64,000 bases of DNA from Gammaproteobacteria bacterium (GCA_029862045.1 JAOTYE010000003.1:62001-126000), one strand, 5' to 3'; shown: positions 40,871-57,340, numbered from the stretch's first letter. A program made the numbers and translations. Notes: a model not told the origin generated them from the sequence alone.

Positions 40871-42354
40871 GCGGTCATCTATTGCTCGCGATTGATCAGG
40901 GCACGAGTAGCAGCCGGACAGTCATTTACGATCATGCAGCCACCCCCGTCGCCAGCGCGCAGCAGGAGTTTCCACAAATCTTTCCGCGGCCGGGCTGGGT
41001 CGAGCACGACCCCGAGGTGATCTGGGGGTCAGTGCAGGACGTCACGCGCCAGGCTATGCACGAAGTCGGTGCCGGCGCTGCGGATATCACGGCGATCGGC
41101 ATCACCAATCAGCGCGAGACGACGCTGATCTGGGACCGCGACAGCGGCGCATGCGTGCACAATGCAATCGTGTGGCAGGACCGCCGTACCGCATCACTAT
41201 GCGAGCGGCTCAAAGCGGACGGCGCTGAATCGATCGTCATCGAAAAAACCGGGCTACGACTCGACCCGTATTTCTCGGCAACGAAAATCGCGTGGCTGCT
41301 CGACAATGTTCAAGGGGTTCGTGAACGGGCGGCCGCCGGCAGGCTCGCATTCGGTACCGTGGATTGCTTTTTGCTTTGGCGCCTGACCGGCGGGCGGGTG
41401 CATGCTACCGACGCAAGCAATGCGTCGCGGACGATGCTGTTCAACATTCATTCGCAGGAGTGGGATGACGAGCTGCTGCAGCTGTTCGACATTCCGCCGC
41501 AGATCCTGCCAGCGGTCCTGGATTGTGCGGCCGAATTCGGCGTAAGCGATAACGACATGTTTGGTGGTGCGATCCCGGTGTGTGGCATGGCTGGCGATCA
41601 GCAGGCTGCTCTTATCGGCCAGGCGGGCTTCGAAAAAGGTACCACCAAGAGCACTTATGGAACCGGTTGTTTCGTTATCGCCAACACTGGCAGCGAAGCG
41701 CTGGCGTCAAGCAACAAATTGCTGACGACTGTAGCGAGCCGCATTGATGGCAGGGTGACCTACGGCCTCGAGGGCAGTGTATTTGTTGCCGGATCTGCGA
41801 TGCAGTGGTTGCGCGATGAGTTGCGTATCATCGATTCGGCGCCGCAATCCGAAAACATTGCACAGGCTACCGGCATTGTTGACGACGTCTATGTCGTGCC
41901 GGCTTTTGCGGGACTTGGTGCGCCATACTGGGACCCGCACGCGCGTGGCGCGATACTCGGTCTCAGCCGCGGCAGCGGACGCGATGCAATCGTTACGGCG
42001 ACTTTGCAGGCGGTCGCTTTTCAGACGCGAGACCTAATTGATGCGATGTCGGATGATGGCATCGCGCCTTCTATTATTCGCGTCGACGGCGGCATGGTGG
42101 CAAACGGCTGGTTCCTGCAATTTCTTGCCGACATTCTCGGTATTCCGGTCGAACGTCCCAAAAATGTCGAGTCGACCGTACTCGGCGCTGCCTATCTTGC
42201 CGGCCTGCAATGCGGCGTCGTTGCATCGATCGATCAAATATCCGGGCTGTGGCAACGTGACGCGCTATTCGAACCGCAAATGGCGGACGAGCGGCGAGAG
42301 CAACTCCTGGCGGGTTGGGCTGCTGCTGTCGCCAGCGTGAGAGCAGGCGAGTAG
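40867..42354 (+). CDS. glpK: Glycerol kinase
   Basis: FGGY sugar kinase of 495 aa, usual length of GlpK. AIDQGTSSSRTVIYDH and FPRPGWVEHDPEVIW start it, ITNQRETTLIWDR, MAGDQQAALIGQAGF and KSTYGTGCFVIANTG form the nucleotide and substrate sites, and RVDGGMVANGWFLQFLADIL is the FGGY C-terminal signature. It phosphorylates glycerol to glycerol-3-phosphate. The glycerol facilitator and G3P dehydrogenase are not adjacent. Two bases after its stop the zinc-ribbon kinase gene starts, which ties the protein-kinase cluster to this transcript. Confidence 0.95.
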   Translation: MSGHLLLAIDQGTSSSRTVIYDHAATPVASAQQEFPQIFPRPGWVEHDPEVIWGSVQDVTRQAMHEVGAGAADITAIGITNQRETTLIWDRDSGACVHNAIVWQDRRTASLCERLKADGAESIVIEKTGLRLDPYFSATKIAWLLDNVQGVRERAAAGRLAFGTVDCFLLWRLTGGRVHATDASNASRTMLFNIHSQEWDDELLQLFDIPPQILPAVLDCAAEFGVSDNDMFGGAIPVCGMAGDQQAALIGQAGFEKGTTKSTYGTGCFVIANTGSEALASSNKLLTTVASRIDGRVTYGLEGSVFVAGSAMQWLRDELRIIDSAPQSENIAQATGIVDDVYVVPAFAGLGAPYWDPHARGAILGLSRGSGRDAIVTATLQAVAFQTRDLIDAMSDDGIAPSIIRVDGGMVANGWFLQFLADILGIPVERPKNVESTVLGAAYLAGLQCGVVASIDQISGLWQRDALFEPQMADERREQLLAGWAAAVASVRAGE

Positions 42355-42356
42355 TC

Positions 42357-43643
42357 ATGCTCAGAGCGAGACAAAAAGTCGACAAGTACAAGATTCTGGG
42401 TCGTATCGCATCGGGACCGCTGGCCGATGTCTATCGCGCCTTCGACACGATCCAGAAGACTCGCGTCGCACTCAAAATTCCAAAGTCCGGCGACCACACC
42501 GGGGAAGAGGAATTTCTGCACGAGGTACGGGTAGCGACCAGGCTCAAACACCCGAATATTTTGTCCGTGCTGAACGCGACTTATATTGACGACCGTTTCG
42601 TTATTGCAATGGAGCTTGGTGATGAGTCGCTCGCCGATCGGCTCGAGCGACGTATTTCGACCGCGCGCGCGATGGATCTTGCGGCTCAGGCACTTGCAGC
42701 GTTGGCACATGCCCACGAGCGCAAGATTATTCATTGCGACATCAAGCCAGAGAACTTCATCCTGTTTGCGGGCAATCAGCTCAAGCTCGCCGATTTCGGT
42801 TTTGCGAAACTCAGCTTGCGCACCCTCAAGGCGTCGGGATCGGGGACGATTGATTACATCGCCCCGGAACAGGCAATGGGCCGGCCGAAATTTCAATCCG
42901 ATGTATTTTCGATGGGGCTGGTCCTGTACCGCCTTTTCTCCGGCAAGTTGCCCGAGTGGCCATTTGGCTGGCCGATGGTCGGTCACGAGCAACTGATTGC
43001 AAGAGTGCGGCCGGAATTCGCGGAGATGCTGAAAAAGGCGATTCAGCTCGATCCAGCCAAGCGCTATCGGGACGCGACCCAAATGCAGGCCGCGTTTGAG
43101 CGCCTGCGCAGCCATGCGCGCCGGCAAAAACGAACGAAAACGAAAAACGGCGGCCGCAGCGGGTCATCGTGGCGGCAGTTGCAGTGGCGCGAGTTCCAAA
43201 GAAAGTACCGCAAGGCGCTGTCAACCGGACAACAATGCCGGCGTTGCGAGGGTCCGGTCGCCGAAAGCATGCAGGCCTGTCCCTGGTGCGGTTTCGATAA
43301 TCCCGCAAGAGGATCGGAATCCTCGCTGCCGTCCAGCTGTCCGCGTTGCGAACGTGGTGTGAAGAACGACTGGAATTACTGCTCCTGGTGCTACGGGCCG
43401 GGATTTGTCGAGGAAACAAGCCGCCGCTATGCGGACAAGCGCTACCAGGCACGTTGCAGCAATACACGGTGTCGAGGGCCGCTGATGCCGTTCATGCGCT
43501 ATTGTCCGTGGTGCCGGACTAAAGTACGACGCCCGTGGAAACTCGCAGGCAGCAGACACTCCTGCAAAGCCTGCAAATGGGGAATAGCAAGAGAGTTCTG
43601 GAATTATTGTGCGTGGTGTCGCGAGCCCGTGCGCCGCGAATAG
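42357..43643 (+). CDS. Ser/Thr protein kinase with four C-terminal zinc ribbons
   Basis: Protein of 428 aa. Residues 8-250 are a Hanks-type kinase: phosphate loop around IASGPLADVYRA, Lys40 in VALKIPK, catalytic Asp128 in HCDIKPEN, Asp147 of DFGFAK and IAPEQA. The catalytic residues are intact, so activity is likely. A basic linker (KRTKTKNGG) leads to four zinc-ribbon-like units with Cys pairs 294/297+308/311, 328/331+342/345, 367/372+383/386 and 403/406+418/421. No transmembrane segment is seen, so it acts in the cytoplasm. The ATG was chosen since it gives the kinase fold start. It precedes a PP2C phosphatase by 23 bases: a writer-eraser pair for the cluster that follows. Confidence 0.9.
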   Translation: MLRARQKVDKYKILGRIASGPLADVYRAFDTIQKTRVALKIPKSGDHTGEEEFLHEVRVATRLKHPNILSVLNATYIDDRFVIAMELGDESLADRLERRISTARAMDLAAQALAALAHAHERKIIHCDIKPENFILFAGNQLKLADFGFAKLSLRTLKASGSGTIDYIAPEQAMGRPKFQSDVFSMGLVLYRLFSGKLPEWPFGWPMVGHEQLIARVRPEFAEMLKKAIQLDPAKRYRDATQMQAAFERLRSHARRQKRTKTKNGGRSGSSWRQLQWREFQRKYRKALSTGQQCRRCEGPVAESMQACPWCGFDNPARGSESSLPSSCPRCERGVKNDWNYCSWCYGPGFVEETSRRYADKRYQARCSNTRCRGPLMPFMRYCPWCRTKVRRPWKLAGSRHSCKACKWGIAREFWNYCAWCREPVRRE

Positions 43644-43666: not shown

Positions 43667-44515
43667 ATGTCTAATCTCCCTGATGACATCGTGTTGCTGG
43701 ACGGCGCCGCCGAGCCCGATCAGCGCCGTGCGTCTGTTGGCGGCGGGAGCGTCATCGCCTATACGTGTCGATCGCCGGACAAGGAGTCTGAGAACGAGGA
43801 CACCGTGGCGATCATTCCCTACGGCCCACAGGCGGCCGTCCTGATCGTTGCCGATGGTGCCGGCGGTCTGCCCGCCGGAAAGCAGGCATCGCTTACCGCG
43901 GTCAATTCGTTGATCGAGTCAATGCAAGCCGCGATGGCTGAGACGATGTTGCTGCGCACTGCGATACTCAACGGCATTGAGGCGGCCAATCTGACGGTAC
44001 AGAATCTCGGCAATGGATCAGCGACGACGATGACGGTTATCACGATCGAAGGTCTGACGGTTCGCGCTTATCAGATCGGTGATTCAGAGGCGATGGTCGT
44101 TGGCCAGCGTGGCTTGATCAAGCTGCAAACGACCGCGCATTCGCCGACGGGATTTGCGGTCGAGGCGGGCTTTCTTGACCAGCGAGAAGCATTGCATCAC
44201 GCAGAGCGCCATCTGGTGTCCAATTTCATGGGCACGGCCGATATGCGCATCGATATTGGTGCCGAATTGAAACTGAAGCCGCGTGACACGATCCTGCTGG
44301 CCAGCGACGGACTGATGGACAATGTGCACGTGGATGAGATCATTGAGAGGATTCGCAAAGGTCCGCTCGACGTTGCGATGCAGGAGGCGATCAGGCTCGC
44401 GCAGCGGCGCATGGCTGGTGCATCGGCGGGCCAGCCGAGCAAACCGGATGATTTGTCGTTAATCCTGTTTCGCAAGCCTTACCGGCCGGCCGCGCGCCGG
44501 CCGGTACAAATTTAA
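43667..44515 (+). CDS. PP2C-family Ser/Thr protein phosphatase
   Basis: Protein of 282 aa with the PP2C core: SENEDTVAII (metal-site Asp), LIVADGAGGLPAGKQAS (the DGxGG site), AYQIGDSEAMVV, LLASDGLMDNV, and PSKPDDLSLILF (last metal Asp). All metal residues are present, so it should dephosphorylate Ser/Thr-P proteins with Mn2+/Mg2+. No membrane segment is seen. An AGAGGT site precedes its ATG. It forms a pair with the zinc-ribbon kinase and probably reverses its action and that of the second kinase on FHA-bound partners. A long GC hairpin lies over its last codons. Confidence 0.9.
   Translation: MSNLPDDIVLLDGAAEPDQRRASVGGGSVIAYTCRSPDKESENEDTVAIIPYGPQAAVLIVADGAGGLPAGKQASLTAVNSLIESMQAAMAETMLLRTAILNGIEAANLTVQNLGNGSATTMTVITIEGLTVRAYQIGDSEAMVVGQRGLIKLQTTAHSPTGFAVEAGFLDQREALHHAERHLVSNFMGTADMRIDIGAELKLKPRDTILLASDGLMDNVHVDEIIERIRKGPLDVAMQEAIRLAQRRMAGASAGQPSKPDDLSLILFRKPYRPAARRPVQI
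44480..44506 (+). terminator. Perfect 10-bp hairpin at the 3' end of the phosphatase gene
   Basis: TACCGGCCGG pairs perfectly with CCGGCCGGTA around a 7-base loop inside the last coding codons. The tail (ACAAATTTAAC) is AT-rich but not a T-run. It may end or attenuate transcription between the kinase-phosphatase pair and the lipoprotein genes, or stabilise the first mRNA. Confidence 0.45.
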
Positions 44516-44728: not shown

Positions 44729-45793
44729 ATGAAATCAAGTCAGTCATCCACGTCGGTTCCCAGTTGGATCAAGCCACTCCTGTTCATAGTGTTTGCTGCT
44801 GTTGTAACAGGTGCGTGCAAAGAACAGTCGTCATCATCGAGTGGCGGCATGTCCTCCCCACCAAGCGGCGGCATGCCGGCTCCACCCGGCGCGCCAGCTC
44901 CGCCAGGTGGCGGAATGCCGACGCCCCCATCACCAAGCGGTGGTGGCATGCCAGCGCCCCCATCACCAAGCGGTGGCTCTGACGGTGACGGTGGTATGCC
45001 CGGAGGCTCTGAAGGACCAACGGGTAGCTCCGGCGATTCAGGCGGTTCGGGCGGAGAAGTCGGCAGTTTTCCCGCCGGCGGTGATGAGTCAGACGGCGTT
45101 CCTCCGCCGCCAAGTTCGAGTGGCGGCGGCGCTGACGGCGACATGTCCGGCGACTCCGGAGACGGAGGCGACGCCGAGAGCCCAAGTGAGTGGGAGGACG
45201 AAAGCAGTTCTGCGGATAGCGAATGTGGCGATACCGGATCCTTACCCGGGGGCGTGGGCGGCATGGGACAGGACGGTGAGTGCATCGGTGGCGGCGGTGG
45301 CGGCGGTTCATCCGAGTCCGCAAGTGACAGTGCCGAAGGCGGCACGCAGGGCACCGGGGGCGCGGGCAGCGTCGGCGAATTCCCGGAAGAGAGCGCAGCC
45401 GAGCGGGCTGAACGGCTGGGCCGCGAGCTCGATGAGTCGATCGGCGGTTTCGACGAGGCGCTGTCGGAAGAACAACGTGAAATTGCTGCGGTAGGACGCA
45501 GCACAGAAGGATTCGGTGAGGGCGCGACGGGCGCCGGCGGCGGCGGCATCATTCTTGGTGAACAGTCTGACGGCAACAACCCCGTATCGGTGGCAAATAC
45601 CGGTATGTCGCGCGAGTCTCCGACGGCCGGGATGACAGAGCAGGAGATTCGCGAGCGTACGCCGGAGGATATTCCGATTTTGGTCGACGACGATATTATC
45701 GCCCGACAGCTGCGTGAGGCTGCGTTGGCCGAAGATGACCCTGCGCTGCGTGACCGGCTCTGGGAAGAGTATCGAAAATACAGCGGTATTTAG
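44729..45793 (+). CDS. Gly/Ser/Pro-rich lipoprotein
   Basis: Protein of 354 aa that I cannot assign. Residues 15-30 are a signal segment ending in a lipobox-like VVTGAC, so it is probably lipid-anchored. Residues 31-215 are almost all Gly, Ser, Pro, Asp and Glu, with PAPPSPSGG-type repeats (an 11-residue unit repeats in the DNA with a 33-base period), a disordered linker that could span the periplasm. The C-terminal third is ordered and helical (AERAERLGRELDESIGG, TEQEIRERTPEDIPILVDDD, then DDPALRDRLWEEYRKY), a possible docking part. It opens the second block of the cluster after a 213-base gap that contains TTGACA at 44617-44622 with no clear -10. Confidence 0.72.
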   Translation: MKSSQSSTSVPSWIKPLLFIVFAAVVTGACKEQSSSSSGGMSSPPSGGMPAPPGAPAPPGGGMPTPPSPSGGGMPAPPSPSGGSDGDGGMPGGSEGPTGSSGDSGGSGGEVGSFPAGGDESDGVPPPPSSSGGGADGDMSGDSGDGGDAESPSEWEDESSSADSECGDTGSLPGGVGGMGQDGECIGGGGGGGSSESASDSAEGGTQGTGGAGSVGEFPEESAAERAERLGRELDESIGGFDEALSEEQREIAAVGRSTEGFGEGATGAGGGGIILGEQSDGNNPVSVANTGMSRESPTAGMTEQEIRERTPEDIPILVDDDIIARQLREAALAEDDPALRDRLWEEYRKYSGI

Positions 45794-45802
45794 GACTATG
45801 AT

Positions 45803-47050
45803 TTGAAAACGATGACACGGGTATCACTGCTGCTGACCGCCACTTGCTTCGTGCTGCCCGGATGTGCGGTCAATGAAGTCATAACCGCCGAAGAAACCGA
45901 ACTGGTCATGGCTGAGACGCCACCGGACGAGGCGGCGCTGCTTGATATTGGCGTCATTGAATTCGAGGGTGGTATGTCTGTCGACAATGATCCGGATAAG
46001 TCCGGTATCTACGAGGAAATTCGCACCGCTGAAATACGTTATTTGCCATACCATCTCAAGACGACGTTGCAAGGTACTGGCCACTGGGGAGCCGTGCGGG
46101 TTATTCCGTCGCGCGATGCGTTTACCGATGTCATCATCAGCGGCAAGATTGAAAAGTCGGACGGTGAGTTCATCACTCTGGATATCTCCGTCGATGACGC
46201 GCGTGGACAGCACTGGTACAGCAAGGCCTACAGTACGCAAACCGGTGTTTCTTCCTATTCGGAAAACCGTGATCGACGCGAAGATCCTTATCAAAAGGTC
46301 TTTAACGATATTGCCAATGATTTGCAGGCATTCGTCGCGCAACTTCCGTCCGAATCGATACGCGAGGTTCGGCAGATTACCGAGCTGAAGTTCTTTGCTG
46401 ACATGTCGTCACGGGCCTACGGTGAACATCTGACTACGAACGAAGAGGGAGTGGTCTCGATTGTTCGTCTGCCGGCCGAAAACGATCCAGCAGTTGATCG
46501 CCTGCGGCAGATCCGCGAACGTGATCGACTTGTCGTCGACACACTCAACGAACACTACGCAAATTTCTATTACGGCATTGCGATTCCGTATCACTCGTGG
46601 CGCAAGACGGCGCGTGAGGAATCGATCAACTACCGCCAGGTGAAGCGATCAGCTGCACTGCAGACGCTGATGGGTGCGGTGGTTATCGCGGGTGCGTTAG
46701 CTGTGGATACGGACAGCTCGAGTTACTCCAGGAGCCGGATGAAACGCAGCTTGCAAAACATCGCTATTGGGGAGGGCTTTCAATCGATTATGTCGGGCGT
46801 CTCGAGGCGCTCGGAGGCGGGGATGCACAGGGAGTCCATCAAGGAATTGTCCGAGTCGTTCGGCGCCGAGGCGGCGCCGATGGTCGTGACCGTCGAGGGT
46901 GAGACGCGTCGCCTGACCGGCACAGCCACTGCGCAGTACGAAAGCTGGCGTAGATTGCTTAAGGAAATCTATGAGGCTGAGACCGGATTCGTCGAGACGG
47001 CAGATGCCGCTGATCCGGATCCGGTGCGTATCCCCGAACCGACGGGATGA
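45803..47050 (+). CDS. Lipoprotein of unknown function
   Basis: Protein of 415 aa with a lipobox LPGCAVNE near the N-terminus, so it is anchored to the inner or outer membrane. I see no known domain. Residues 80-170 look like a mixed fold with EIRTAEIRYLPYHLKTTLQG, GAVRVIPSRDAFTDVIISGK and YSKAYSTQTG; residues 275-300 are a hydrophobic stretch (LQTLMGAVVIAGALAVDTD). Similar stretches occur in lipoproteins of this sort of kinase cluster, but I have no name. The start may be TTG or the ATG nine bases later. It sits between the Gly-rich lipoprotein (9 bases) and the membrane kinase (about 14 bases), so it likely belongs to the complex. Confidence 0.75.
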   Translation: MKTMTRVSLLLTATCFVLPGCAVNEVITAEETELVMAETPPDEAALLDIGVIEFEGGMSVDNDPDKSGIYEEIRTAEIRYLPYHLKTTLQGTGHWGAVRVIPSRDAFTDVIISGKIEKSDGEFITLDISVDDARGQHWYSKAYSTQTGVSSYSENRDRREDPYQKVFNDIANDLQAFVAQLPSESIREVRQITELKFFADMSSRAYGEHLTTNEEGVVSIVRLPAENDPAVDRLRQIRERDRLVVDTLNEHYANFYYGIAIPYHSWRKTAREESINYRQVKRSAALQTLMGAVVIAGALAVDTDSSSYSRSRMKRSLQNIAIGEGFQSIMSGVSRRSEAGMHRESIKELSESFGAEAAPMVVTVEGETRRLTGTATAQYESWRRLLKEIYEAETGFVETADAADPDPVRIPEPTG

Positions 47051-47064
47051 GCGATCACTGATTG

Positions 47065-49419
47065 ATGCAAGACATCAAGAAAGGAAGTGAGCTCGCGAGC
47101 CGCTACACGCTGCTGCGCAAGCTCGGAGCCGGCGGTGCCGCCGAAACCTGGCTCGCTAAAGATCGACTGACACGTGCATCCGTTGCGCTGAAGATACTCG
47201 TCAGCAAACGCGTGGCCGCAGGGGATTTCCACAAGGAATGGCAAAACAGCATCCGTTTGATGCATGCACACATCGTGCGTGTGTTCGAATTCAATGCTGA
47301 ACCGGACAACCCGTTCTACAGCCTGCAGTTCGTCGATGGGCCCGATATCAGTGTGTTGTCAGGTGCCCCGCTCGAACACATCCTCGCGCCTGTCGGGCTT
47401 GTTGCAGATGCATTGCGCTATGCGCACGGCAAGAATGTGGTACATCGCGACATCAAGGCGAGCAATATTCTTCTGGACCAGAACGGTGCTCCATACCTGA
47501 TCGACTTCGGGGTCGCCGCAGTTGCCGGTGCTGAGGCAGGAGGCGGCTCACTGATCGCGGCGAGTCCACAAACGCTCTCGGGAGACGTGCCGCAGCCGGC
47601 GGATGATATTTTTGCGCTTGGCGGGCTTATCTACGAGCTTGTCAGCGGTCGTTCACCCTATTCGTCGTCTGCGACGGCGGAGGACATCCGGCACGCGGTG
47701 CCGCCGCCTTTGGTTGCAGCCGACGGTTCTGCGGTTCCAACAGCTGTACAGCAGCTCGTCGCGAGCATGCTTGATAAAGACGCGCTGGCGCGACCGGATG
47801 CCGCAACCGTCGCGACGATGCTCGAATCCGCGGGCTTCCCGTCTGCGCCCGCGCCTGCAAGTTATACAGGTGGCCGACGGGCTCCGATCGATGAACTCAT
47901 CGAAGCCAGCGACAACGTTCGACCCGGGACGAGACACGCAGCTGCAGCGTCGCTGACGGCGCCAAAGGAAAGCTCCGGCATCAGTCCAAGGACACTGGGG
48001 ATCAGTCTCGTCGTGCTGCTCGCGATACTGACTGGTGTCGTATTTTTTCTGCCGGATACCGTCACGACCGACGGCATTAAGCCCGTCGCCGAAACGCGTG
48101 AGGAGACAGTTCAGACTGAGAAGGAAAGTGAGCGCAAAAGAGGCGTGGGCTTCACTGAAAACGTCGATGACCTGAGTGGGCGCGATGCGCGCGTCAAAGC
48201 ACGAGCCGATACCGAAGTTGTGCTCGGCGAATTGCTGTCGAAAATGGAAACGCTGGAGCGGCGAGCTGTGCAGCGTTGGGGTGGTCTGCGTTTCAAGCAA
48301 GCGCAGGCGATCTATGCGGAAGGCGATGTGGCATACCTCGCGCGCGATTACGTCATTGCCAGCGAGAAGTATGCTGAGGCGATCGCGATCGTCGAGCCGC
48401 TGCTCGATGAGGTTGACCAGGTCTTTGCCACGACGTTTACCGATGCGCAGGCTGCACTCGAGGCCGCGGATGCTGTCGAAGCACTACGACTCTTTGAGCT
48501 GGCCGTCGCGATCAGCCCGAGCCACGCAGCAGCAGAGGCGGGTTACACGCGAGCGAAGAACCTTGATACCGTTCTTTCACTCACCGATCAGGGGTTCGAG
48601 TTTGAGAGCGAGCTTGAACTCGAAGCTGCACGGCAGAGTTTTGCCAGGGCGGTGGAACTCGATCCTGAGTGGCAGCCCGCGCAAACCGGTCTCGAGCGAG
48701 TGCAGGCGACGATAAAGCAAATGGAGTTTGATCAACGCATGACCGAAGGCCTGACCGCGTTGACCGAACGGGATTACCCTGGAGCTCGGGCGGCGTTTCG
48801 AATGGCGCAGCAACTCAGGCCGGAATCACGGGAGCCCGCCGATGGTCTGTTACAGGTCGACCAGGGAATACGGCTGGACCAGATTTCGGCATTCGAGAGG
48901 CAAGCCCAGCGTCAGGAACGCGATGAAGAATGGGAGATAGCGGTCGAGACTTACGAGAGTATCCTTGAGATTGACAGCAATCTTCTGTTTGCGCAGGAGG
49001 GACTCAGCCGTGCGCGGCAGATGACTGCATTGCATGCGCAACTTGATGAGTACATCGCGGACCCGGACAGCCTGAGCACGGCGTTCACGATGAGCAAGGC
49101 GACGCGACTTGTCGTCGATATCACACGCATGCCGAGCATCGGACCGCGACTGTCCGGGCAGCGCGACGAGCTATCGCGACTACTGAAACGCGCGGCAACC
49201 CCGCTAACCGTGCAGCTGGTTTCGGACAACGTCACGGACGTCTCTATCTACAAAGTTGGTAAACTCGGCAGCTTTCAAACGCGCCAATTGGACCTCAGGC
49301 CGGGCACATACGTCGCTGTTGGAAGCCGGCCGGGGTACCGGGATGTGCGCCTCGAGTTTCGTGTCGCACCGGAGATTGATCTTCAGCCGGTTGTTGTTCG
49401 CTGCGAGGAATCAATTTGA
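47065..49419 (+). CDS. Membrane Ser/Thr kinase with helical repeats
   Basis: Protein of 784 aa; a TTG-ATG start pair occurs and the ATG is used. Residues 12-270 form a kinase domain (LGAGGAAETWLA, Lys43 in VALKIL, Asp129 in VVHRDIKASN, Asp147 of IDFGVA). The usual APE appears as SPQ, a weak activation-loop end. A transmembrane helix (LGISLVVLLAILTGVVFFL, about 307-325) follows, so the rest is likely periplasmic. Residues 370-640 are TPR-like repeats (EKYAEAIAIVEPLL, ARQSFARAVELDPEWQ, ARAAFRMAQQLRPESR), and the end resembles a PEGA domain (LDLRPGTYVAVGSRPGY). It probably senses the envelope and phosphorylates cytoplasmic FHA partners. It overlaps the next gene by 4 bases. Confidence 0.88.
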   Translation: MQDIKKGSELASRYTLLRKLGAGGAAETWLAKDRLTRASVALKILVSKRVAAGDFHKEWQNSIRLMHAHIVRVFEFNAEPDNPFYSLQFVDGPDISVLSGAPLEHILAPVGLVADALRYAHGKNVVHRDIKASNILLDQNGAPYLIDFGVAAVAGAEAGGGSLIAASPQTLSGDVPQPADDIFALGGLIYELVSGRSPYSSSATAEDIRHAVPPPLVAADGSAVPTAVQQLVASMLDKDALARPDAATVATMLESAGFPSAPAPASYTGGRRAPIDELIEASDNVRPGTRHAAAASLTAPKESSGISPRTLGISLVVLLAILTGVVFFLPDTVTTDGIKPVAETREETVQTEKESERKRGVGFTENVDDLSGRDARVKARADTEVVLGELLSKMETLERRAVQRWGGLRFKQAQAIYAEGDVAYLARDYVIASEKYAEAIAIVEPLLDEVDQVFATTFTDAQAALEAADAVEALRLFELAVAISPSHAAAEAGYTRAKNLDTVLSLTDQGFEFESELELEAARQSFARAVELDPEWQPAQTGLERVQATIKQMEFDQRMTEGLTALTERDYPGARAAFRMAQQLRPESREPADGLLQVDQGIRLDQISAFERQAQRQERDEEWEIAVETYESILEIDSNLLFAQEGLSRARQMTALHAQLDEYIADPDSLSTAFTMSKATRLVVDITRMPSIGPRLSGQRDELSRLLKRAATPLTVQLVSDNVTDVSIYKVGKLGSFQTRQLDLRPGTYVAVGSRPGYRDVRLEFRVAPEIDLQPVVVRCEESI

Positions 49420-51842
49420 GTTTTGACCACCTCTATATCAGAGACGCTGAAGGCGAACGACGTATCGGCGCCAATGCGCTGCCGCTGCGCGTTGGCACAG
49501 GCAACGATTGTCAACTTCGCTTGCCGGGTCCAGGAGGCGGACCCGTCATGTTGCTCGACTTGCTTGACGGCGCGCCATTCGTACAGCCTTTTGGGCGCGA
49601 CGACTCAATGCAAATCAACGGTGCGCCACTGGTTGCCAGTACGCGTCTCGCCGATGGCGACGAGCTGCAGTTTTTTGGCAGCAGAATCCGGGTTTCCGCA
49701 GCAGTCGAGCGACTGACCCTGGATGTGCGACTCGAAGATAGTGCGTACGTTACGCAACCCCCGGAACTGGCTGACGATGCCGCGCAAGCTGCAGACGAGG
49801 CGATTGCACCGACGGCGTTTCGGCGCGCGGCCGATACGCATGCGGCTGTTGTCGAATCGCGCCGTAATCCACTCAAGGCGATCGTCGGCGTTGGACTCAC
49901 AATACTAATCGTCATGTCCTACTTGCTCTTCAGCTCGGCATCGATTCAGTTCGAAGTGAGCCCCGCGGAGCCCGACGATATTTCGATATCCGGCGGCTGG
50001 TTTCGTATGCCGATCGGCGGTCGGATTCTCCTTCGCAGCGGGGAGCACACGGTCACGGTAGAAAAGCAGGGTTACTACGATGTCAGTCAGAATTTTGTCG
50101 TTGGAGACGAAGCGAGCAAGACAATTGAGATCAGAATGCGCCGCTTGCCGGGCCGCCTGTCCGTCGCCACAGAGCCTCCCGTCGACGCTGTCGTAACGAT
50201 CGATAGCAGCACCGTCGGCAAAACGCCGTATGGTCCTGTCGAGTTGCAACCGGGAGAGCACAGTGTCAGCGTGCGCGCCGAACGCTACCTGCCATTCGGC
50301 GATGTTATTGCGGTTGCGGGTCTGGGGCAGCACGAGGAATTGTACGTTCAGCTTGTACGCCGTTGGTCGAATGTCGAGGTGACGTCGGAGCCGGCCGGCG
50401 CAACGATATTTGCAGGCGAAAATCGTGTCGGCGAAACGCCTGCCGTTATTGAACTTCTCGAGGGCACGCACCAAATCAGCGTTGTTCGGGACGGATTCAG
50501 AGCCTGGGATGGCACGGTGACAGCGCAGCCGAATATGGACCAGGTGCTGCCCCTGATTCAGCTGCAACCGGCAAATGCGAAGTTGCTCGTTAACTCCATT
50601 CCACGGGCAGCAAATGTGACGGTCGATGGCCGTTATCGCGGACAATCACCGATCACGCTGGCATTGTCTCCGGGCGTTGACTACGACATCGGCCTGTCAA
50701 AGGCGGGTTATGGAGCGACCAGCCGACGGGTGCGGCTGCAAGCCGCGGCGAGCGATTCGATAACTGTCGATCTGTCTGCGCGTACCGGATCATTGACTGT
50801 CAATGTGCAGCCTGCTGATGCCACCGTTTTCGTCGATGGCCGCGCGCGTGGCAACGGCTCCACAACTCTGCGGCTAAGCTCCGCACCACATCGGGTCGAA
50901 GTCCGCAAGACCGGCTATCAAAGCTGGTCGCGAACGGTTACGCCGCGACCGGGATATCCGCAGACGGTTACCGCACAATTGCGGTCGCTCGCAGCAATCG
51001 AGCAGGAAAAAGTCGAAGTTACGGTGAAGACGGTGGACGATCAGCTCATGCGCCGCGTCGAACCCGGAACATTCAGGTTGGGTTCGTCACGCTCGGAGCA
51101 GGGCAGGCGGGCAAATGAGGTGCTGGTCCCGGTTACGCTGACACGGCCGTTCCTGATCGGAGTCCACGAAGTCACTAACGGCGAGTTTGCGAAATTCCGG
51201 GCCGGGCATGATTCTGGCAGTGATATTCATGCATCGATGGCGGGCGGTCAAAACCCCGTCGCCAATGTCACCTGGTCTGATGCTGTGGAGTACTGCAACT
51301 GGCTCAGTGCAAGAGAAGGCCTGCAGCCGGCTTACGAGGAGAAATTTGGTGAATGGACGGTCATTCGACCACTCACCAACGGCTACCGGTTGCCGACAGA
51401 GGCCGAGTGGGCCTGGGCGATTCGCTATGAGGGCAGCGCTGGCGTGCGAAAATTCTCGTGGGGCTCCGAAATGCCGCCGAAGCGTGATAGCGGCAACTTC
51501 GCGGACAAGGCGGCAATAGATCTTGTGCCGACGATTCTGCCGCGCTACGACGACGGCTTCGCATCAACGGCACCGGTCGGCAAATTCGTGCCAAACGTCA
51601 TCGGCATCCACGACGGCAGCGGCAACGTTGCTGAGTGGGTCAATGACATCTATACAGTGCCAACACCGGGAATCACGACACCTGTGGTTGATCCGATGGG
51701 CCCCGAGACGGGCAGGAGCCACGTAATTCGCGGCTCGAGCTGGCGGCATGCGGGCATTCTGGAGCTGCGCCTCAGTTATCGTGATTCAGGTAGCGATGCG
51801 CGATCGGACGTCGGCTTTCGCATTGTCAGAACCGTGCCCTGA
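49416..51842 (+). CDS. FHA-TM-PEGA-SUMF1 protein
   Basis: Protein of 808 aa from a TTG start, with GAGGA 7 bases upstream, overlapping the kinase gene by 4 bases. Residues 1-95 are FHA-like (LPLRVGTGNDCQLRLPG, DSMQINGAPLVAS), facing the cytoplasm. A membrane helix at about 154-174 leads to five PEGA repeats (residues 177-535; each has an AGATIF/VDG strand and a GxHxVxVxxxGY end). The C-terminus (from 545) is an SUMF1/formylglycine-enzyme-like fold: NVTWSDAVEYCNWLSA, YRLPTEAEWAWAIRYEG, GIHDGSGNVAEWVND. The Cys pair of true FGE is absent from IRGSSWRHAGILELRLSYRD, so it may be a scaffold. FHA implies it reads phospho-Thr from the kinases. Confidence 0.88.
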   Translation: MSFDHLYIRDAEGERRIGANALPLRVGTGNDCQLRLPGPGGGPVMLLDLLDGAPFVQPFGRDDSMQINGAPLVASTRLADGDELQFFGSRIRVSAAVERLTLDVRLEDSAYVTQPPELADDAAQAADEAIAPTAFRRAADTHAAVVESRRNPLKAIVGVGLTILIVMSYLLFSSASIQFEVSPAEPDDISISGGWFRMPIGGRILLRSGEHTVTVEKQGYYDVSQNFVVGDEASKTIEIRMRRLPGRLSVATEPPVDAVVTIDSSTVGKTPYGPVELQPGEHSVSVRAERYLPFGDVIAVAGLGQHEELYVQLVRRWSNVEVTSEPAGATIFAGENRVGETPAVIELLEGTHQISVVRDGFRAWDGTVTAQPNMDQVLPLIQLQPANAKLLVNSIPRAANVTVDGRYRGQSPITLALSPGVDYDIGLSKAGYGATSRRVRLQAAASDSITVDLSARTGSLTVNVQPADATVFVDGRARGNGSTTLRLSSAPHRVEVRKTGYQSWSRTVTPRPGYPQTVTAQLRSLAAIEQEKVEVTVKTVDDQLMRRVEPGTFRLGSSRSEQGRRANEVLVPVTLTRPFLIGVHEVTNGEFAKFRAGHDSGSDIHASMAGGQNPVANVTWSDAVEYCNWLSAREGLQPAYEEKFGEWTVIRPLTNGYRLPTEAEWAWAIRYEGSAGVRKFSWGSEMPPKRDSGNFADKAAIDLVPTILPRYDDGFASTAPVGKFVPNVIGIHDGSGNVAEWVNDIYTVPTPGITTPVVDPMGPETGRSHVIRGSSWRHAGILELRLSYRDSGSDARSDVGFRIVRTVP

Positions 51843-51907: not shown

Positions 51908-52144
51908 GTGTATCGATTTCTACTGATTGTTATCGCCAGTTGCTTTCTCAGCGTGGCGGCCTGGGCACAGGAAGATCCCGCCGAGCCGGACGAACCGGAC
52001 GAGACCGAAGAGCCGCAGGTGGCAGCCGAAGAAGTAGATGAAGCGGGCCTTGACGAGCAGGGCTTCACCGATGAAGACGACGATTTTCGACCCAGCGAGG
52101 ACATCCCGGCCGATCAGTCAATTCCGTTTCCAACAGACATCTAG
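51908..52144 (+). CDS. Small acidic exported protein
   Basis: Protein of 78 aa with a signal peptide (FLLIVIASCFLSVAAWA) and an acidic mature part of about 57 residues (DPAEPDEPDETEEPQ, EDDDFRPSEDIPADQ). It starts at GTG with GAGGA nearby and ends 14 bases before the TolQ-like gene. No domain is known. Its position suggests a small periplasmic partner of the channel, or an acidic mediator like those in Tol-type systems. It could be lost from automatic annotation owing to its size. Confidence 0.65.
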   Translation: MYRFLLIVIASCFLSVAAWAQEDPAEPDEPDETEEPQVAAEEVDEAGLDEQGFTDEDDDFRPSEDIPADQSIPFPTDI

Positions 52145-52158
52145 CCTGAATAATCAAT

Positions 52159-52959
52159 ATGAATAAAAAGAACATACCGGTTGAATTCGTGTTTCAACTT
52201 TTCGCGCTGATCATTGCAATCATTATTGTGCACGCTTTCTACGTTGCCGTAGTTCGCCCAAATGCTGCGCAGATCATTGAAGAGCAGACAATTGCTGCGG
52301 CGGCCGACCCGGACTACGTCCGGGAACGGCGCGTCTCGGTGTTGATCAAAGACATGGAACAGGAGGCCTGTTTCATTCTCGGCCTTTGGGCTCTAGCAAT
52401 CATGGGCTACAAAGCGGTAATAATTCTTGGCGAGCGCCGACTACTCGACGTAGACCTCGTGCCCGTCGCGGAGGGGATGCGAATTTTGCCCGAGGACACA
52501 CGCGAATTTGCGCGCCAGATTGAGGCGCTACCCGAAGACAGCCAGCGCATGCTGCTGCCGCGGGCGCTGTTGAATGCACTGCGACGATTCAGCACGACGC
52601 GCAACATCCAGGACGTATCGAGCAGTACGCGCAATATATACGAGACAGAGGGTGAGCGACTCGAATCGGAACTGTCGATGATTCGCTATATCTCGTGGGC
52701 GATACCGTCGATCGGCTTCATCGGCACGGTTCGCGGCATCGGTGAAGCGCTCGCGCAGGCCGACAAAGCGGTGCAAGGCGATATCGCAGGCGTAACGCAG
52801 AGTCTGGGCGTTGCCTTCAATTCGACGTTCATCGCCTTGCTGATCAGCATCTTTTTGATGTTTCTCGTGCACCAGTTGCAGTTGCTGCAGGAGCGGCTTG
52901 TCTTTGACGGCGAGAACTACTGCAACGACAAGTTGATCCGGCACATGAAGGCGGACTAG
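52159..52959 (+). CDS. MotA/TolQ/ExbB-type proton channel subunit
   Basis: Protein of 266 aa. A first helix (11-33), a second at 71-91 (ACFILGLWALAIMGYKAVII), a third at 177-199 and a fourth at 214-240 enclose a cytoplasmic segment at 92-176. The TM3 motif PSIGFIGTVRGIGEAL at 183-198 is the MotA/TolQ/ExbB hallmark, and TQSLGVAFNSTFIALLISIF is the TM4 counterpart with the conserved Thr. Order of helices, with a long stretch between 2 and 3, fits the family, so it is the ion-conducting ring of a proton-driven motor. Its normal partner, ExbD/TolR/MotB, is not separate here: the two downstream vWA proteins have matching anchors. Confidence 0.9.
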   Translation: MNKKNIPVEFVFQLFALIIAIIIVHAFYVAVVRPNAAQIIEEQTIAAAADPDYVRERRVSVLIKDMEQEACFILGLWALAIMGYKAVIILGERRLLDVDLVPVAEGMRILPEDTREFARQIEALPEDSQRMLLPRALLNALRRFSTTRNIQDVSSSTRNIYETEGERLESELSMIRYISWAIPSIGFIGTVRGIGEALAQADKAVQGDIAGVTQSLGVAFNSTFIALLISIFLMFLVHQLQLLQERLVFDGENYCNDKLIRHMKAD

Positions 52960-52978: not shown

Positions 52979-54346
52979 GTGGGTCTTCTCGCAGCGCACA
53001 TCAACGATGCCGGTATCTCGGTTCTGGACTCGGACAAGTTACTGTATCGGGAACCGGGGTTCGCGCTGCTCGACGATGACAAACTGACAACGGGTGCTGA
53101 GGCGTTTTCAAAAGCGCGCGTCAAACCACGGCGCATTCAGAACCGGTTCTGGTCGAATCTGCAAACAACGCCGTTGGCCGATCGCCGTTTTCAGCATTTG
53201 AGTGCTGCCGACCTCGCAAGCCGGCAACTGGAACAGATGTGGAAGCGCGTTGCCGGTGCTGGCGATCGTATCGTCCTCGCGGTACCCGCGTATATGCGGG
53301 CTGACAATCTTGGCCTGTTGCTCGGAATTGCGGCCGAATTGAAGATTCCGGTCACTGCAATGGTCGATGCCGCTGTCGCAGCGACGCGTCGCGAATACCA
53401 GAATGCCGTGCCCGCACACGTCGATCTCAGCCTGCATTCGACGGTCGTGACACGACTGGCTCAATCTGGGCAGGCGCAGATGGATCGGTCAGCAGTGATT
53501 GATGAATGCGGGATGATAGCCCTGCACGAAGCCTGGATTGCGCTTATCGCGGAGGCATTCGTGCAGCAGTCCCGCTTCGATCCTCTGCATACCGCGGAAA
53601 CAGAGCAAATGCTGCAAGACAAGTTGCAGGGTTGGTTGTCTGCTGTGGCTGGCGGAAAAACCATCACACTCGAGATCGAATACCGTGGTATTACGCATCG
53701 GGCCGATCTCGAGTTGCTCGAGTTCGTCGCTGCGGCGGCACCGACCTACCATCGCATTGTCAGTAACCTGCGGGCATTATATCGGGCCGATGAAACGCCG
53801 GCCCTGCAGCTCTCGGACCGCGCAGCTCGAATGCCCGGCCTCGCAGATATTCTTACCGCCCGTGTCGGGGGCGAAATATTTCTGCAAGAGCCCGGAGCGA
53901 CCGCTCGAGGATTGCTATCGCGTTGCCGCGAGATGCAGCATGGCGACAGTTCCGTCAGCCTGATACGACAATTGCCGTGGGACCAGTCGCCCGTTGTGCT
54001 CAAGAACACCGAGGTCATCAGACAGGGAGGTCATCCAACGCATCTGTTGTTCGACAACACCGCATACGCAATTGATACGCGGCCGTTAACGCTTGGGTCA
54101 CAATCAAGTGACGGAGAACGCTGCATCGAATTACAACAAGACATGCCCGGCGTATCGCGCCGACACTGTTCATTGCAGCAGGAGAACAGTCAGTGCATTG
54201 TCCGCGACTTCAGCCGCTACGGTACATTTCTGAATGGGCACCGAATCGACGGTTCTGCCGTCCTGCAAGTTGGAGATCTGATACGGCTTGGCACGCCGGG
54301 CTACGAGCTGCGACTGATTACCATGGAAAACGACAATGGCTCGTAA
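52979..54346 (+). CDS. Actin/Hsp70-like protein with C-terminal FHA domain
   Basis: Protein of 455 aa with a GTG start. Residues 1-330 look like an actin/Hsp70-type ATPase fold: GLLAAHINDAGISVLDSD (phosphate-1-like), then RIVLAVPAYMRADNLGLLLG and AAELKIPVTAMVDAAVAA, which recall the VPAYF-helix-EP-AA pattern of Hsp70. The ATP-binding glycines are not all clear, so ATPase activity is a guess. Residues 375-445 are an FHA domain with GVSRRHCSLQQ, then VRDFSRYGTFLNGHRI, containing the Arg, Ser, His, Asn residues that bind phospho-Thr. No membrane segment: it is a cytoplasmic link between the kinase signals and the channel, 19 bases behind it. Confidence 0.75.
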   Translation: MGLLAAHINDAGISVLDSDKLLYREPGFALLDDDKLTTGAEAFSKARVKPRRIQNRFWSNLQTTPLADRRFQHLSAADLASRQLEQMWKRVAGAGDRIVLAVPAYMRADNLGLLLGIAAELKIPVTAMVDAAVAATRREYQNAVPAHVDLSLHSTVVTRLAQSGQAQMDRSAVIDECGMIALHEAWIALIAEAFVQQSRFDPLHTAETEQMLQDKLQGWLSAVAGGKTITLEIEYRGITHRADLELLEFVAAAAPTYHRIVSNLRALYRADETPALQLSDRAARMPGLADILTARVGGEIFLQEPGATARGLLSRCREMQHGDSSVSLIRQLPWDQSPVVLKNTEVIRQGGHPTHLLFDNTAYAIDTRPLTLGSQSSDGERCIELQQDMPGVSRRHCSLQQENSQCIVRDFSRYGTFLNGHRIDGSAVLQVGDLIRLGTPGYELRLITMENDNGS

Positions 54347-55433
54347 GCGACGGCCATTCGAAGTCTTCAGCATGTCGTTTCTCGATTGCATGAGTTGTGG
54401 TTTCGGCGCGGTCATCTTGTTTTTCATGATCATCAATGCACAGGTCAAGGAAACAACCGAGCAGGATCCGTCGGACCTCATGGCAGAGACGCGCAAAATC
54501 GAGATCGAAATACTCGATGAGCGCAAGAATCTCGTGCTTGCCAAGAACACGATGGAGCGGCTCGAGACCGAGCAAGACACAGCAGAAGGGCAGATCGCGC
54601 AGATTATCAGGCTAATTGAAGAATTGCGTGCCGAGCTCTCGAAATACGACTCGGAGACCCTCGCGCACATCGAAGCTGTCGAGAAACTGCAAACCGACAT
54701 CAAGTCGCTCGAAGAGCAGGTCAAGCGCCTGCTCGCGCTTGCAGCGGAAGACGAGGCTGATGGTAACAGGCTGCGCGAGTTTCAAGGCGAGGGCGACCGC
54801 CAGTACCTGACCGGTCTCAGATTGGGCGGCAAACGAACGCTCATACTTGTTGATCGTTCTGCGAGCATGCTCGACGACACGATCGTGAATATTATCCGGC
54901 GGCGCAACATGTCTGTGGGTGACAGGCTCCGAGCGGTCAAATGGCGCCAGGTTGTGGCCAGCGTCGATTGGCTAACCGCCCAGTTTTTACCAGGCAGCGA
55001 ATTTCAGATCTACATGTTCAATAACGATGTTGAACCTGTCATCAAAGGCAGCGACGGTGTCTGGCTAAAGGCCGATGACAGTCGCCAGCTTGATGAGGCA
55101 GTTCGGGTCTTGCGGCGCACCGTGCCCGAGAACGGCACGAACATGAAGGCAGCCTGGGAAGTCGCGTCGCGACTAACACCACTGCCGGACAACATTATCC
55201 TGCTCGCCGACGGCCTGCCGACCATGGATGAGCCGACGATCAGCCAAAGGACAGTGAGCGGGCGTGACCGATACCGAATGCACTTCAATGCGTTGCGTGA
55301 ACTGCCGAGCGGTATTCCGGTCAATGTTTTTCTGTATCCACTCGAAGGCGATTACGAAGCGCCAATCGTTTATTGGGTGCTGGCGTACCGTACGGGTGGT
55401 TCGTTTATAAGCGTTAGCAGGGACTGGCCGTAG
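54336..55433 (+). CDS. vWA protein with ExbD/TolR-like membrane anchor (first copy)
   Basis: Protein of 365 aa. A basic start (ARKRRPFEVF) leads to FSMSFLDCMSCGFGAVILFF (12-31), a single helix with Asp17, Cys18 and Cys21. By hand, SFLDCMS aligns with PFIDVML of ExbD, including the proton-carrying Asp. Residues 40-140 are a coiled coil (ERLETEQDTAEGQIAQI, LEEQVKRLLALAAEDE). Residues 165-365 are a von Willebrand factor A domain with a MIDAS metal site: Asp173, Ser175 and Ser177 in ILVDRSASM, Thr in ENGTNMKAAW, and LADGLPTMDEP. The anchor places the vWA head in the periplasm. It overlaps the FHA gene by 11 bases and precedes a second such gene by 18. Confidence 0.88.
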   Translation: MARKRRPFEVFSMSFLDCMSCGFGAVILFFMIINAQVKETTEQDPSDLMAETRKIEIEILDERKNLVLAKNTMERLETEQDTAEGQIAQIIRLIEELRAELSKYDSETLAHIEAVEKLQTDIKSLEEQVKRLLALAAEDEADGNRLREFQGEGDRQYLTGLRLGGKRTLILVDRSASMLDDTIVNIIRRRNMSVGDRLRAVKWRQVVASVDWLTAQFLPGSEFQIYMFNNDVEPVIKGSDGVWLKADDSRQLDEAVRVLRRTVPENGTNMKAAWEVASRLTPLPDNIILLADGLPTMDEPTISQRTVSGRDRYRMHFNALRELPSGIPVNVFLYPLEGDYEAPIVYWVLAYRTGGSFISVSRDWP

Positions 55434-55451
55434 CATGACGGAGCAATTAAG

Positions 55452-56450
55452 ATGAAACGGCGCCGCAATGTTGAAGCGTTTAGTCTGTCGTTCCTCGACT
55501 GCATTTGTTGTGGTTTTGGTGCGATTATTCTGTTGCTCGTTCTCAGCAAGATTTACGAACCGGTCATTATCGAAAAAACGCAGGACGATCTCGAGCAGTT
55601 GATTGCCCTGTTGCAGCAGGAGCTTTTCGACATTCGCGGTGAAACGGCCGTGATCAATCGCGACCTCGAAGACGTTCGCGAGCAAGCCTCGTTAAGCAAG
55701 TTACGACTTGCACGCAAACAGGGCGAACTTAATACAGTACGAGGCCAGTACAAAGCGACGCAGCAGGAATCCGAGGCGCCCCTTGATGAGGGGGCACTGC
55801 GTGTCACCAAGCAACGGCTGACAGAAGAGATGCGGAGGTTGCAGCCCTACTATCGAGCTGCCGACGACGATGCGGTAGCCGGCATTCCTGTCGATAGTGA
55901 GTACGTGATCTTCATTATCGATACGTCCGGCAGTATGCAACAGTTCAACTGGCCCCGGGCTATCGAAAAGCTGACCGAGACGCTCGACGTGTATCCACAG
56001 GTCAAAGGCATTCAGATCATGAATGACAATGGCAGCTACATGTTCAAACAATACGCTGGCAAGTGGATACCCGATACGCCAGGACGTCGTCAGGCCATCG
56101 TAAATACGATGCGCACATGGCGCCCGTTTAGTGACAGCAATCCTGTCGACGGCATTATCTATGCGATCAGTACATTCTGGTCGCCCGACAAGAAGATAAG
56201 TATCTACGTATTCGGCGACGAATTCAGTGGCCGTTCGGTTGAGGCCGTCGTTCGGCAAGTCGATACCGTGAATCGGGAAGATGAAGATGGCAACAGATTG
56301 GTGCGCATTCACGCTGTTGGTTTTCCGTTCTTCTTCGAACCGGGCCGGGAGTTGTCTGATACGACACGTCGCTACGCGCAACTCATGCGTATCCTTTGTG
56401 AAAGAAATGGCGGGACCTTCGTCGCGCTATCCGATCCCGACCGCGGTTGA
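55452..56450 (+). CDS. vWA protein with ExbD/TolR-like membrane anchor (second copy)
   Basis: Protein of 332 aa, a diverged partner of the preceding one. MKRRRNVEAFSL leads to SFLDCICCGFGAIILLLV (13-30), with Asp16, Cys17, Cys19 and Cys20. The coiled coil spans about 40-130 (DLEQLIALLQQELFDI, LRVTKQRLTEEMRRL). The vWA domain (150-332) has its MIDAS site Asp157, Ser159, Ser161 in FIIDTSGSM and conserved TFWSPDKKISIYVFGDE and VDGIIYAISTF. It ends without a tail. Two unequal vWA anchors suit a heterodimer in the pore of the MotA/TolQ-like ring, as ExbD/TolR dimers occur there. Confidence 0.88.
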   Translation: MKRRRNVEAFSLSFLDCICCGFGAIILLLVLSKIYEPVIIEKTQDDLEQLIALLQQELFDIRGETAVINRDLEDVREQASLSKLRLARKQGELNTVRGQYKATQQESEAPLDEGALRVTKQRLTEEMRRLQPYYRAADDDAVAGIPVDSEYVIFIIDTSGSMQQFNWPRAIEKLTETLDVYPQVKGIQIMNDNGSYMFKQYAGKWIPDTPGRRQAIVNTMRTWRPFSDSNPVDGIIYAISTFWSPDKKISIYVFGDEFSGRSVEAVVRQVDTVNREDEDGNRLVRIHAVGFPFFFEPGRELSDTTRRYAQLMRILCERNGGTFVALSDPDRG

Positions 56451-56452
56451 TC

Positions 56453-56510
56453 TGCGCCACAATGCAAGATTGTTGCTGCGCCACAATGCAAGATTGTTGC
56501 TGCGCCACAA
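56453..56510. repeat. 24-base tandem repeat between vWA and OmpA genes
   Basis: Starting two bases after the vWA stop codon, the unit CTGCGCCACAATGCAAG plus ATTGTTG occurs twice in full, and a third copy begins CTGCGCCACA before it diverges to CACCACAATT. Each unit contains ACAAT-GCAAG-ATTGT, a five-base inverted repeat. It may be a DNA- or RNA-binding site in front of the ompA-like gene. Confidence 0.75.
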
Positions 56511-56617
56511 TTCACCACAATTGATCGTCAACTTTGCATGATGCGGGCCATTCGGCAGCGCTTTTGTGCCATGTAATGACCTCCAACAGCGACTGAAACA
56601 CCATGGAGGACATACCA

Positions 56618-57340
56618 ATGCGTAATACCTTGACAATTATTTTAATACTGACCCTTGCAACAGCAACCCCTGTGTTCGCGGCAGCGGCATCCAAAGAAGA
56701 GAACGTCGGCGTCGGTGCGGGCGCCGTTGTCGGTGCGCTGGCGGGCGGCCCGGTTGGTTTCATAATCGGCGCAGCGATCGGCGGCAAGTTCGGCGACAAG
56801 ATGCACCAGAAACGTACGACAATCGATACGTTGTCTGGCTCCCTAAGCGACTCTCGCAGCGATGTTACCGAGCTCGAGAACGATGTTCGTGTGCTCAACA
56901 GTGATATTGATACGCTCAGTACCGAGCTCGAGCGAATTCAGGAGTTCGACCGGCCACAGTTAATCAATTTAATGCAAGCCGGTATTGCAATGGATCTGCT
57001 GTTTCGTACCGATGAGCACGTGCTAGCCGACACGACAGGCGGTCGACTCGCCGAACTCGCCAGTGGTCTTGCATCGATGCCGGATATCCGCGTGCATCTG
57101 GATGGTTTTGCCGATGAACGTGGCGACTCCGACTACAATCTGCAACTCTCCAGGAAACGCGTGGAGTTCGTTCGGGACCAGCTTGTCACTGCCGGCGTGC
57201 ATCCGTCACGGATTCGTGTTGTCGCACATGGCGAAGCCCCTGCACAGGATGAATCGGTCGACAGCTATGCCCTTGAGCGTCGCGTCAGCCTGAAGTTATT
57301 CATCGACAATGGGCAGTCGTTCGCCTCCAGCCCAAACTAG
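56618..57340 (+). CDS. OmpA-family peptidoglycan-binding protein with glycine zipper
   Basis: Protein of 240 aa; the ATG reading MRNTLTIIL was chosen because GGAGG stands eight bases upstream. A signal peptide ends near PVFAAAA. Residues 32-62 are a glycine zipper (VGAGAVVGALAGGPVGF, IIGAAIGGKFGD), then a coiled coil at about 65-115 (LSDSRSDVTELENDVRVL), and an OmpA domain at 120-235: GFADERGDSDYNLQLSRKR has the Asp and Arg that bind meso-DAP, with VVAHGEAPAQ and LERRVSLKLF. It resembles PdsO-like OmpA proteins of sortase-linked systems, but no sortase is here. It could be the Pal/MotB-like anchor to the cell wall. An intrinsic terminator follows. Confidence 0.88.
   Translation: MRNTLTIILILTLATATPVFAAAASKEENVGVGAGAVVGALAGGPVGFIIGAAIGGKFGDKMHQKRTTIDTLSGSLSDSRSDVTELENDVRVLNSDIDTLSTELERIQEFDRPQLINLMQAGIAMDLLFRTDEHVLADTTGGRLAELASGLASMPDIRVHLDGFADERGDSDYNLQLSRKRVEFVRDQLVTAGVHPSRIRVVAHGEAPAQDESVDSYALERRVSLKLFIDNGQSFASSPN

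Follow-up and report, generated by a model that had tools for sequence, protein, structure and literature searches.

Two adjacent vWA proteins, which we call vWA1 and vWA2, probably form the two-helix axle of a TolQ-type 5:2 proton motor, in the position of ExbD/TolR. Their genes lie in the window, that is, the whole stretch of 64,000 nucleotides analysed here from a Gammaproteobacteria bacterium (GCA_029862045.1, JAOTYE010000003.1:62001-126000). All positions are counted from its first letter. The model is built on the linkage of the genes, the absence of ExbD, the invariance and membrane depth of an anchor Asp, and the pore threonines of a TolQ-like protein. It also draws on the vWA folds and on the conservation of their MIDAS residues.

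The vWA1 gene (54336-55433, plus strand) is an intact ORF of 365 amino acids. It encodes an N-terminal TM anchor with Asp17, a helical stalk (residues 45-140) and a vWA head. Likewise, vWA2 (55452-56450, plus strand) is an intact ORF of 332 amino acids, with Asp16 in its anchor, a helical stalk (residues 21-107) and a vWA head. The anchor sequences are MARKRRPFEVFSMSFLDCMSCGFGAVIL in vWA1 and MKRRRNVEAFSLSFLDCICCGFGAIIL in vWA2. The initial annotation described the anchor as FSxSFLDCxxCGFGAxIL in both proteins, with the Asp at residue 17 or 16, and it reported the motifs DRSAS and DTSGS behind a coiled coil. The anchor is present in both translations and the Asp has the residue number given. 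DRSAS is at 173-177 of vWA1 and DTSGS at 157-161 of vWA2. In both predicted structures, a helical stalk roughly 100 residues long precedes the head.

The Asp is present in 236 of 236 anchors (115 vWA1 and 121 vWA2), a set retrieved in part with a pattern that itself contains Asp. It is equally kept in the relatives retrieved by whole-protein search, without selection by motif. No signal of conservation periodicity was seen along the helix face bearing the Asp. This residue had been proposed to fall where ExbD and TolR carry their own. Judged by charge spacing, the membrane depth matches. In medians, the last charge is 8 residues before the Asp and the first charge 17 after it, in vWA2 and ExbD alike; the values in vWA1 are 10 and 19. 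Anchor geometry of this type is rare elsewhere (16 cases in about 950 other ORFs, many of which are internal stretches starting at a later Met), in a control drawn from the ORFs of the loci and not from all genes of the genome.

The HMM-HMM comparison of the anchors with ExbD/TolR, a check proposed together with that claim, did not give significant similarity. The scores were 14.4 and 13.8, about one standard deviation above column-shuffled ExbD controls (11.2 +/- 3.0 and 10.7 +/- 2.6), for a helix of 25 residues that may be too short for such a comparison. Because these scores are near the shuffled controls, we do not claim homology to ExbD, and they do not separate convergence from remote homology. 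Among the matches listed, none of the vWA proteins has a match to the Pfam ExbD family (PF02472).

Like the members of that family, vWA1 and vWA2 have one N-terminal TM helix, a buried Asp at equal depth and a partner of the TolQ/ExbB type. The differences lie around these features. Ahead of the Asp, the N-terminal stub carries basic residues in the vWA proteins and acidic ones in ExbD. The small periplasmic domain of the ExbD type is absent from both, and a long helical stalk with a vWA head is in its place. Moreover, vWA1 and vWA2 are two unlike subunits, in contrast to ExbD/TolR. In the MotAB flagellar stator, a pair of Asp-bearing TM helices is placed in a pentameric pore, and such a helix pair is what the vWA proteins have in common with it. 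The OmpA-like peptidoglycan-binding domain, a feature of MotB, had no match in vWA1 or vWA2.

The TolQ-like motor subunit is encoded at 52159-52959 (plus strand). It matches MotA_ExbB (PF01618) with 53.7 bits, against a curated cut-off of 22.9. Its residues Thr190 and Thr223 are invariant in 43 of 43 sequences, and they align with the pore threonines of TM3 and TM4 in solved TolQ. This genome of 3.5 Mb has seven proteins of the MotA_ExbB family and eight ExbD. All eight ExbD genes adjoin the other six TolQ-family genes, with no orphan ExbD, and the seventh TolQ-family gene alone has the vWA pair instead. MotB was not found in this genome. More generally, the vWA/TolQ operon had no ExbD nearby in any of 139 stretches (137 true relatives), and the same profile recovered ExbD at 36 of 36 ExbD control loci. 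With neither ExbD nor MotB for this TolQ, the axle position would have no occupant other than the vWA pair. No natural fusion joining TolQ to a vWA or FHA protein was found in a search.

The vacancy could also be filled by a borrowed ExbD/TolR. The vWA proteins would then be TolA/TonB-like transducers outside the TolQ pentamer. The eight ExbD proteins of the genome would allow this, and a separate first vWA family with an SHLS anchor does exist (PMC12204202). Nevertheless, we consider this arrangement unlikely. The anchors in the window have neither the SHLS motif nor His, and they carry the invariant buried Asp. In addition, each ExbD of the genome is already beside another TolQ, and none occurs in the 139 stretches. 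The vWA pair as the axle itself fits these observations better.

The two to three Cys noted after the Asp are a property of this genome, but family-wide the one at Asp+4 alone is conserved. A Cys occupies this position in 234 of 236 anchors, a count biased upward since the pattern selected loci in which one protein or both carry it. Among the relatives retrieved without the pattern, it is found in 37 of 37 vWA1 and 40 of 40 vWA2. The two exceptions are both vWA1, with Ala in L054 and Gly in L133. Positions Asp+1 and Asp+3 vary freely (Val, Ile, Ser, Ala, Phe, Thr or Cys), and Gly/Ala is strictly kept after the Asp+4 Cys.

These residues might have a different meaning. The Asp and Cys could act between the two vWA proteins, in packing their helices, in a disulfide or in the binding of a metal, and the complex could be a static tether or a sensor. 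The near-constant Cys, at equivalent places in both partners, and the strict Gly/Ala behind it agree with this. However, the Asp+4 Cys is replaced in two vWA1 and the remaining anchor cysteines are variable, so an obligatory disulfide or metal site seems unlikely from the alignments. More likely, this Cys would provide a small polar side chain, either within the pore or where the two helices meet. The co-occurring TolQ also keeps its pore threonines, which suggests proton use. We therefore regard a static role as quite improbable, and the motor axle stays as the preferred reading.

The AlphaFold2 models of vWA2 and vWA1 have pLDDT values of 84.9 and 85.4, respectively. The vWA1 model presents helices at 11-41 and 45-140 and a head at 167-359. 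The vWA2 model presents a helix at 21-107 and a head at 151-326. A single helix carries each head, with 96 residues in vWA1 and 87 in vWA2 (part of the anchor included). The top solved-structure matches of both heads are vWA domains (Z 17.9 for vWA2 and 17.7 for vWA1). VWA_2 is matched by 57 of 61 vWA1 and 25 of 61 vWA2 sequences.

A complete MIDAS site in each head was part of the initial annotation. This stands for both proteins of the window (D173, S175, S177, T268 and D292 in vWA1; D157, S159, S161, S229 and D256 in vWA2) and for all vWA2, where the five residues are invariant in 61 of 61 sequences. It does not extend to vWA1 throughout, as the site is degraded in several lineages. Five records, L069, L087, L089, L123 and L152, have another residue in place of the first Asp. 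The first three are Opitutae or Opitutus (Verrucomicrobia) records and L123 is a gammaproteobacterium. Because MIDAS is invariant in vWA2 and lost in some vWA1, the conservation pattern points to vWA2 as the likely ligand-binding head. For some members of the family, the vWA1 head may have a structural role.

We searched named bacterial and archaeal genomes with a 32-base DNA pattern for FLDxxxCGFGA. At least 119 stretches matched, and 117 of those listed carry this vWA family. In these, the TolQ gene usually adjoins the vWA genes where the flank is long enough. L137 and L157 were rejected as relatives, being chance pattern matches on the wrong strand and in unrelated genes. By record name, the carriers among the matches listed are Gamma-, Alpha- and Deltaproteobacteria and Opitutae (Verrucomicrobia). 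The vWA pair is found in 37 of 40 genomes of the window's order and in about 10 of 299 genomes across the phylum, counting strong matches only. The median distance between the vWA1 and vWA2 genes is 3 bases. No relatives of vWA2 or TolQ were found in viral contigs. The operon is rearranged in L075 (3395-6323), with TolQ after vWA2 rather than before the FHA gene. In L123 and L153, the stretch examined contains PEGA-FGE, FHA and the vWA pair but no TolQ.

The gene between TolQ and vWA1 encodes an FHA protein (52979-54346, plus strand) and overlaps vWA1 by 11 bases. Its C-terminal FHA domain scores 49.2 bits. The family profile of its N-terminal part has a weak match to DnaK/Ssb1 (E 0.005), and a Hsp70/actin-like domain is possible there. 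By the distance between TolQ and vWA1, roughly one locus in four lacks this gene. Upstream of TolQ is a small acidic protein (51908-52144, plus strand) of 78 amino acids with an N-terminal hydrophobic segment. It is poorly conserved, with weak matches in relatives and no family match.

The PEGA-FGE membrane protein (49416-51842, plus strand) has four PEGA repeats, a domain with the FGE-sulfatase fold and an N-terminus that is FHA-like by eye. Among the 71 loci with sufficient flanking sequence, it precedes TolQ in 65. In the active-site segment of the FGE domain, the cysteines are absent in 42 of 42 readable cases. A GFRC motif was rejected as a sign of FGE activity, as the active cysteines lie elsewhere. 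The best named relative is GldK with 88.5 bits, far under the curated cut-off of 350, and the protein was not accepted as a GldK.

Further upstream, a Ser/Thr kinase is joined via a TM segment to a TPR part (47062-49419, plus strand). The TPR part is the conserved piece of this fusion, and the kinase domain is confined to some lineages. It is preceded by a lipoprotein of 415 amino acids with an LPGC lipobox (45803-47050, plus strand), conserved in synteny and with no Pfam or PDB profile match. Before it lies a Gly/Pro/Ser-rich probable lipoprotein (44729-45793, plus strand), whose C-terminal 45 residues are conserved. The upstream order is kept: Gly/Pro-rich lipoprotein, 415-residue lipoprotein, TPR protein and PEGA-FGE. 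Where the flank suffices, the TPR protein is upstream of TolQ in 25 of 25 loci and the lipoprotein in 18 of 18. A PP2C phosphatase (43667-44515, plus strand) adjoins the operon only within the genus. Next to it is the gene of a Ser/Thr kinase that ends in a double zinc ribbon (42315-43643, plus strand); outside the genus, no operon was seen with a full copy of this kinase at its side.

TolQ-type motors can serve defence, as in Zorya, and with this precedent the kinases, the PP2C phosphatase and the FHA domains of this operon might suggest a regulatory or conflict (defence-like) complex of kinase, FHA and vWA proteins, its motor being a sensor and no force generator; but this is very improbable, as the motor, vWA and FHA proteins have no match to defence models and the kinases match kinase models only, many operons keep TolQ, vWA1, vWA2, PEGA-FGE and the lipoprotein without kinase domains, and the operon is near-universal among relatives, in contrast to mobile defence genes.

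In the motor model, the N-terminal helices of vWA1 and vWA2 would stand in the pore of the TolQ-like pentamer. Asp17 and Asp16 would be protonated alternately, opposite the ring of Thr190/Thr223. The stalk, about 11-14 nm by modelled helix length, would transmit rotation or tension to the two vWA heads, placed nearer the outer membrane. There, the invariant MIDAS of vWA2 would grip a partner in a metal-dependent manner. The heads might bind PEGA-FGE or the lipoproteins; of these candidates, PEGA-FGE and the upstream lipoprotein seem the best. In this lineage, the fused kinase and FHA domains would probably switch the motor.

A broader proposal is tentative and may well prove wrong. The vWA/TolQ motor would drive a trans-envelope machine not described before, with vWA2 as the gripper, a dispensable MIDAS in vWA1, and the kinase/FHA part as a lineage-specific switch. 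The operon in question comprises lipoproteins, TPR, PEGA-FGE without the FGE cysteines, the FHA protein with its possibly Hsp70-like part, TolQ, vWA1 and vWA2. If the motor model holds, many Proteobacteria and Verrucomicrobia have a TolQ-type motor that drives metal-dependent grippers in place of its usual ExbD/TolR partners. Single-residue tests of the model are possible at the Asp and the MIDAS positions. The GldLM motor with GldK, of type IX secretion and gliding, shares with the proposed machine a proton motor, a long periplasmic axle and an FGE-fold protein. The system of the window differs from it in its vWA heads, its TolQ-type motor subunit and its two different axle subunits.

The central idea, a vWA pair as the partner of a TolQ motor, is a prediction that has appeared in print before (PMC12204202, Mol Biol Evol, June 2025). 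That paper reports heterologous vWA pairs that adjoin tolQ, without tolR. It describes a conserved proton-binding Asp, which AF3 complex models place facing a Thr ring, and proposes the pair, as a prediction, as the dimeric partner of the motor. The second vWA family of the paper, TPH-vWA/TolQ, shares several features with the system of the window. Both are dissimilar TM-anchored vWA pairs with an adjacent tolQ-like gene, both are without tolR, exbD or motB, both have the anchor Asp, and both occur in Proteobacteria and Verrucomicrobia. The main text of the paper holds no contradictory feature. From these matching features, and not from sequence, we infer that the vWA family of the window is the Idiomarina family of that work. 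Its main text makes no mention of cysteines, MIDAS, kinases or PEGA neighbours. Relative to that text, our analysis adds statistics in support, discounts most of the cysteines, and describes both the unequal conservation of MIDAS in the two heads and the content of the operon. From the last two come specific candidates for the partners on which the published vWA motors would pull. In the literature searched, we found no experimental work, phenotype or biochemistry on any member of the family.

Directly downstream of vWA2, an OmpA-family protein with a glycine zipper is encoded at 56603-57340, a possible peptidoglycan anchor. Its gene adjoins the operon in several genomes of the same genus and in L029, and it is absent from most other loci. 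Between the vWA2 stop codon and this gene, at 56452-56511, lies a perfect 24-base tandem repeat of 2.5 copies (CTGCGCCACAATGCAAGATTGTTG).
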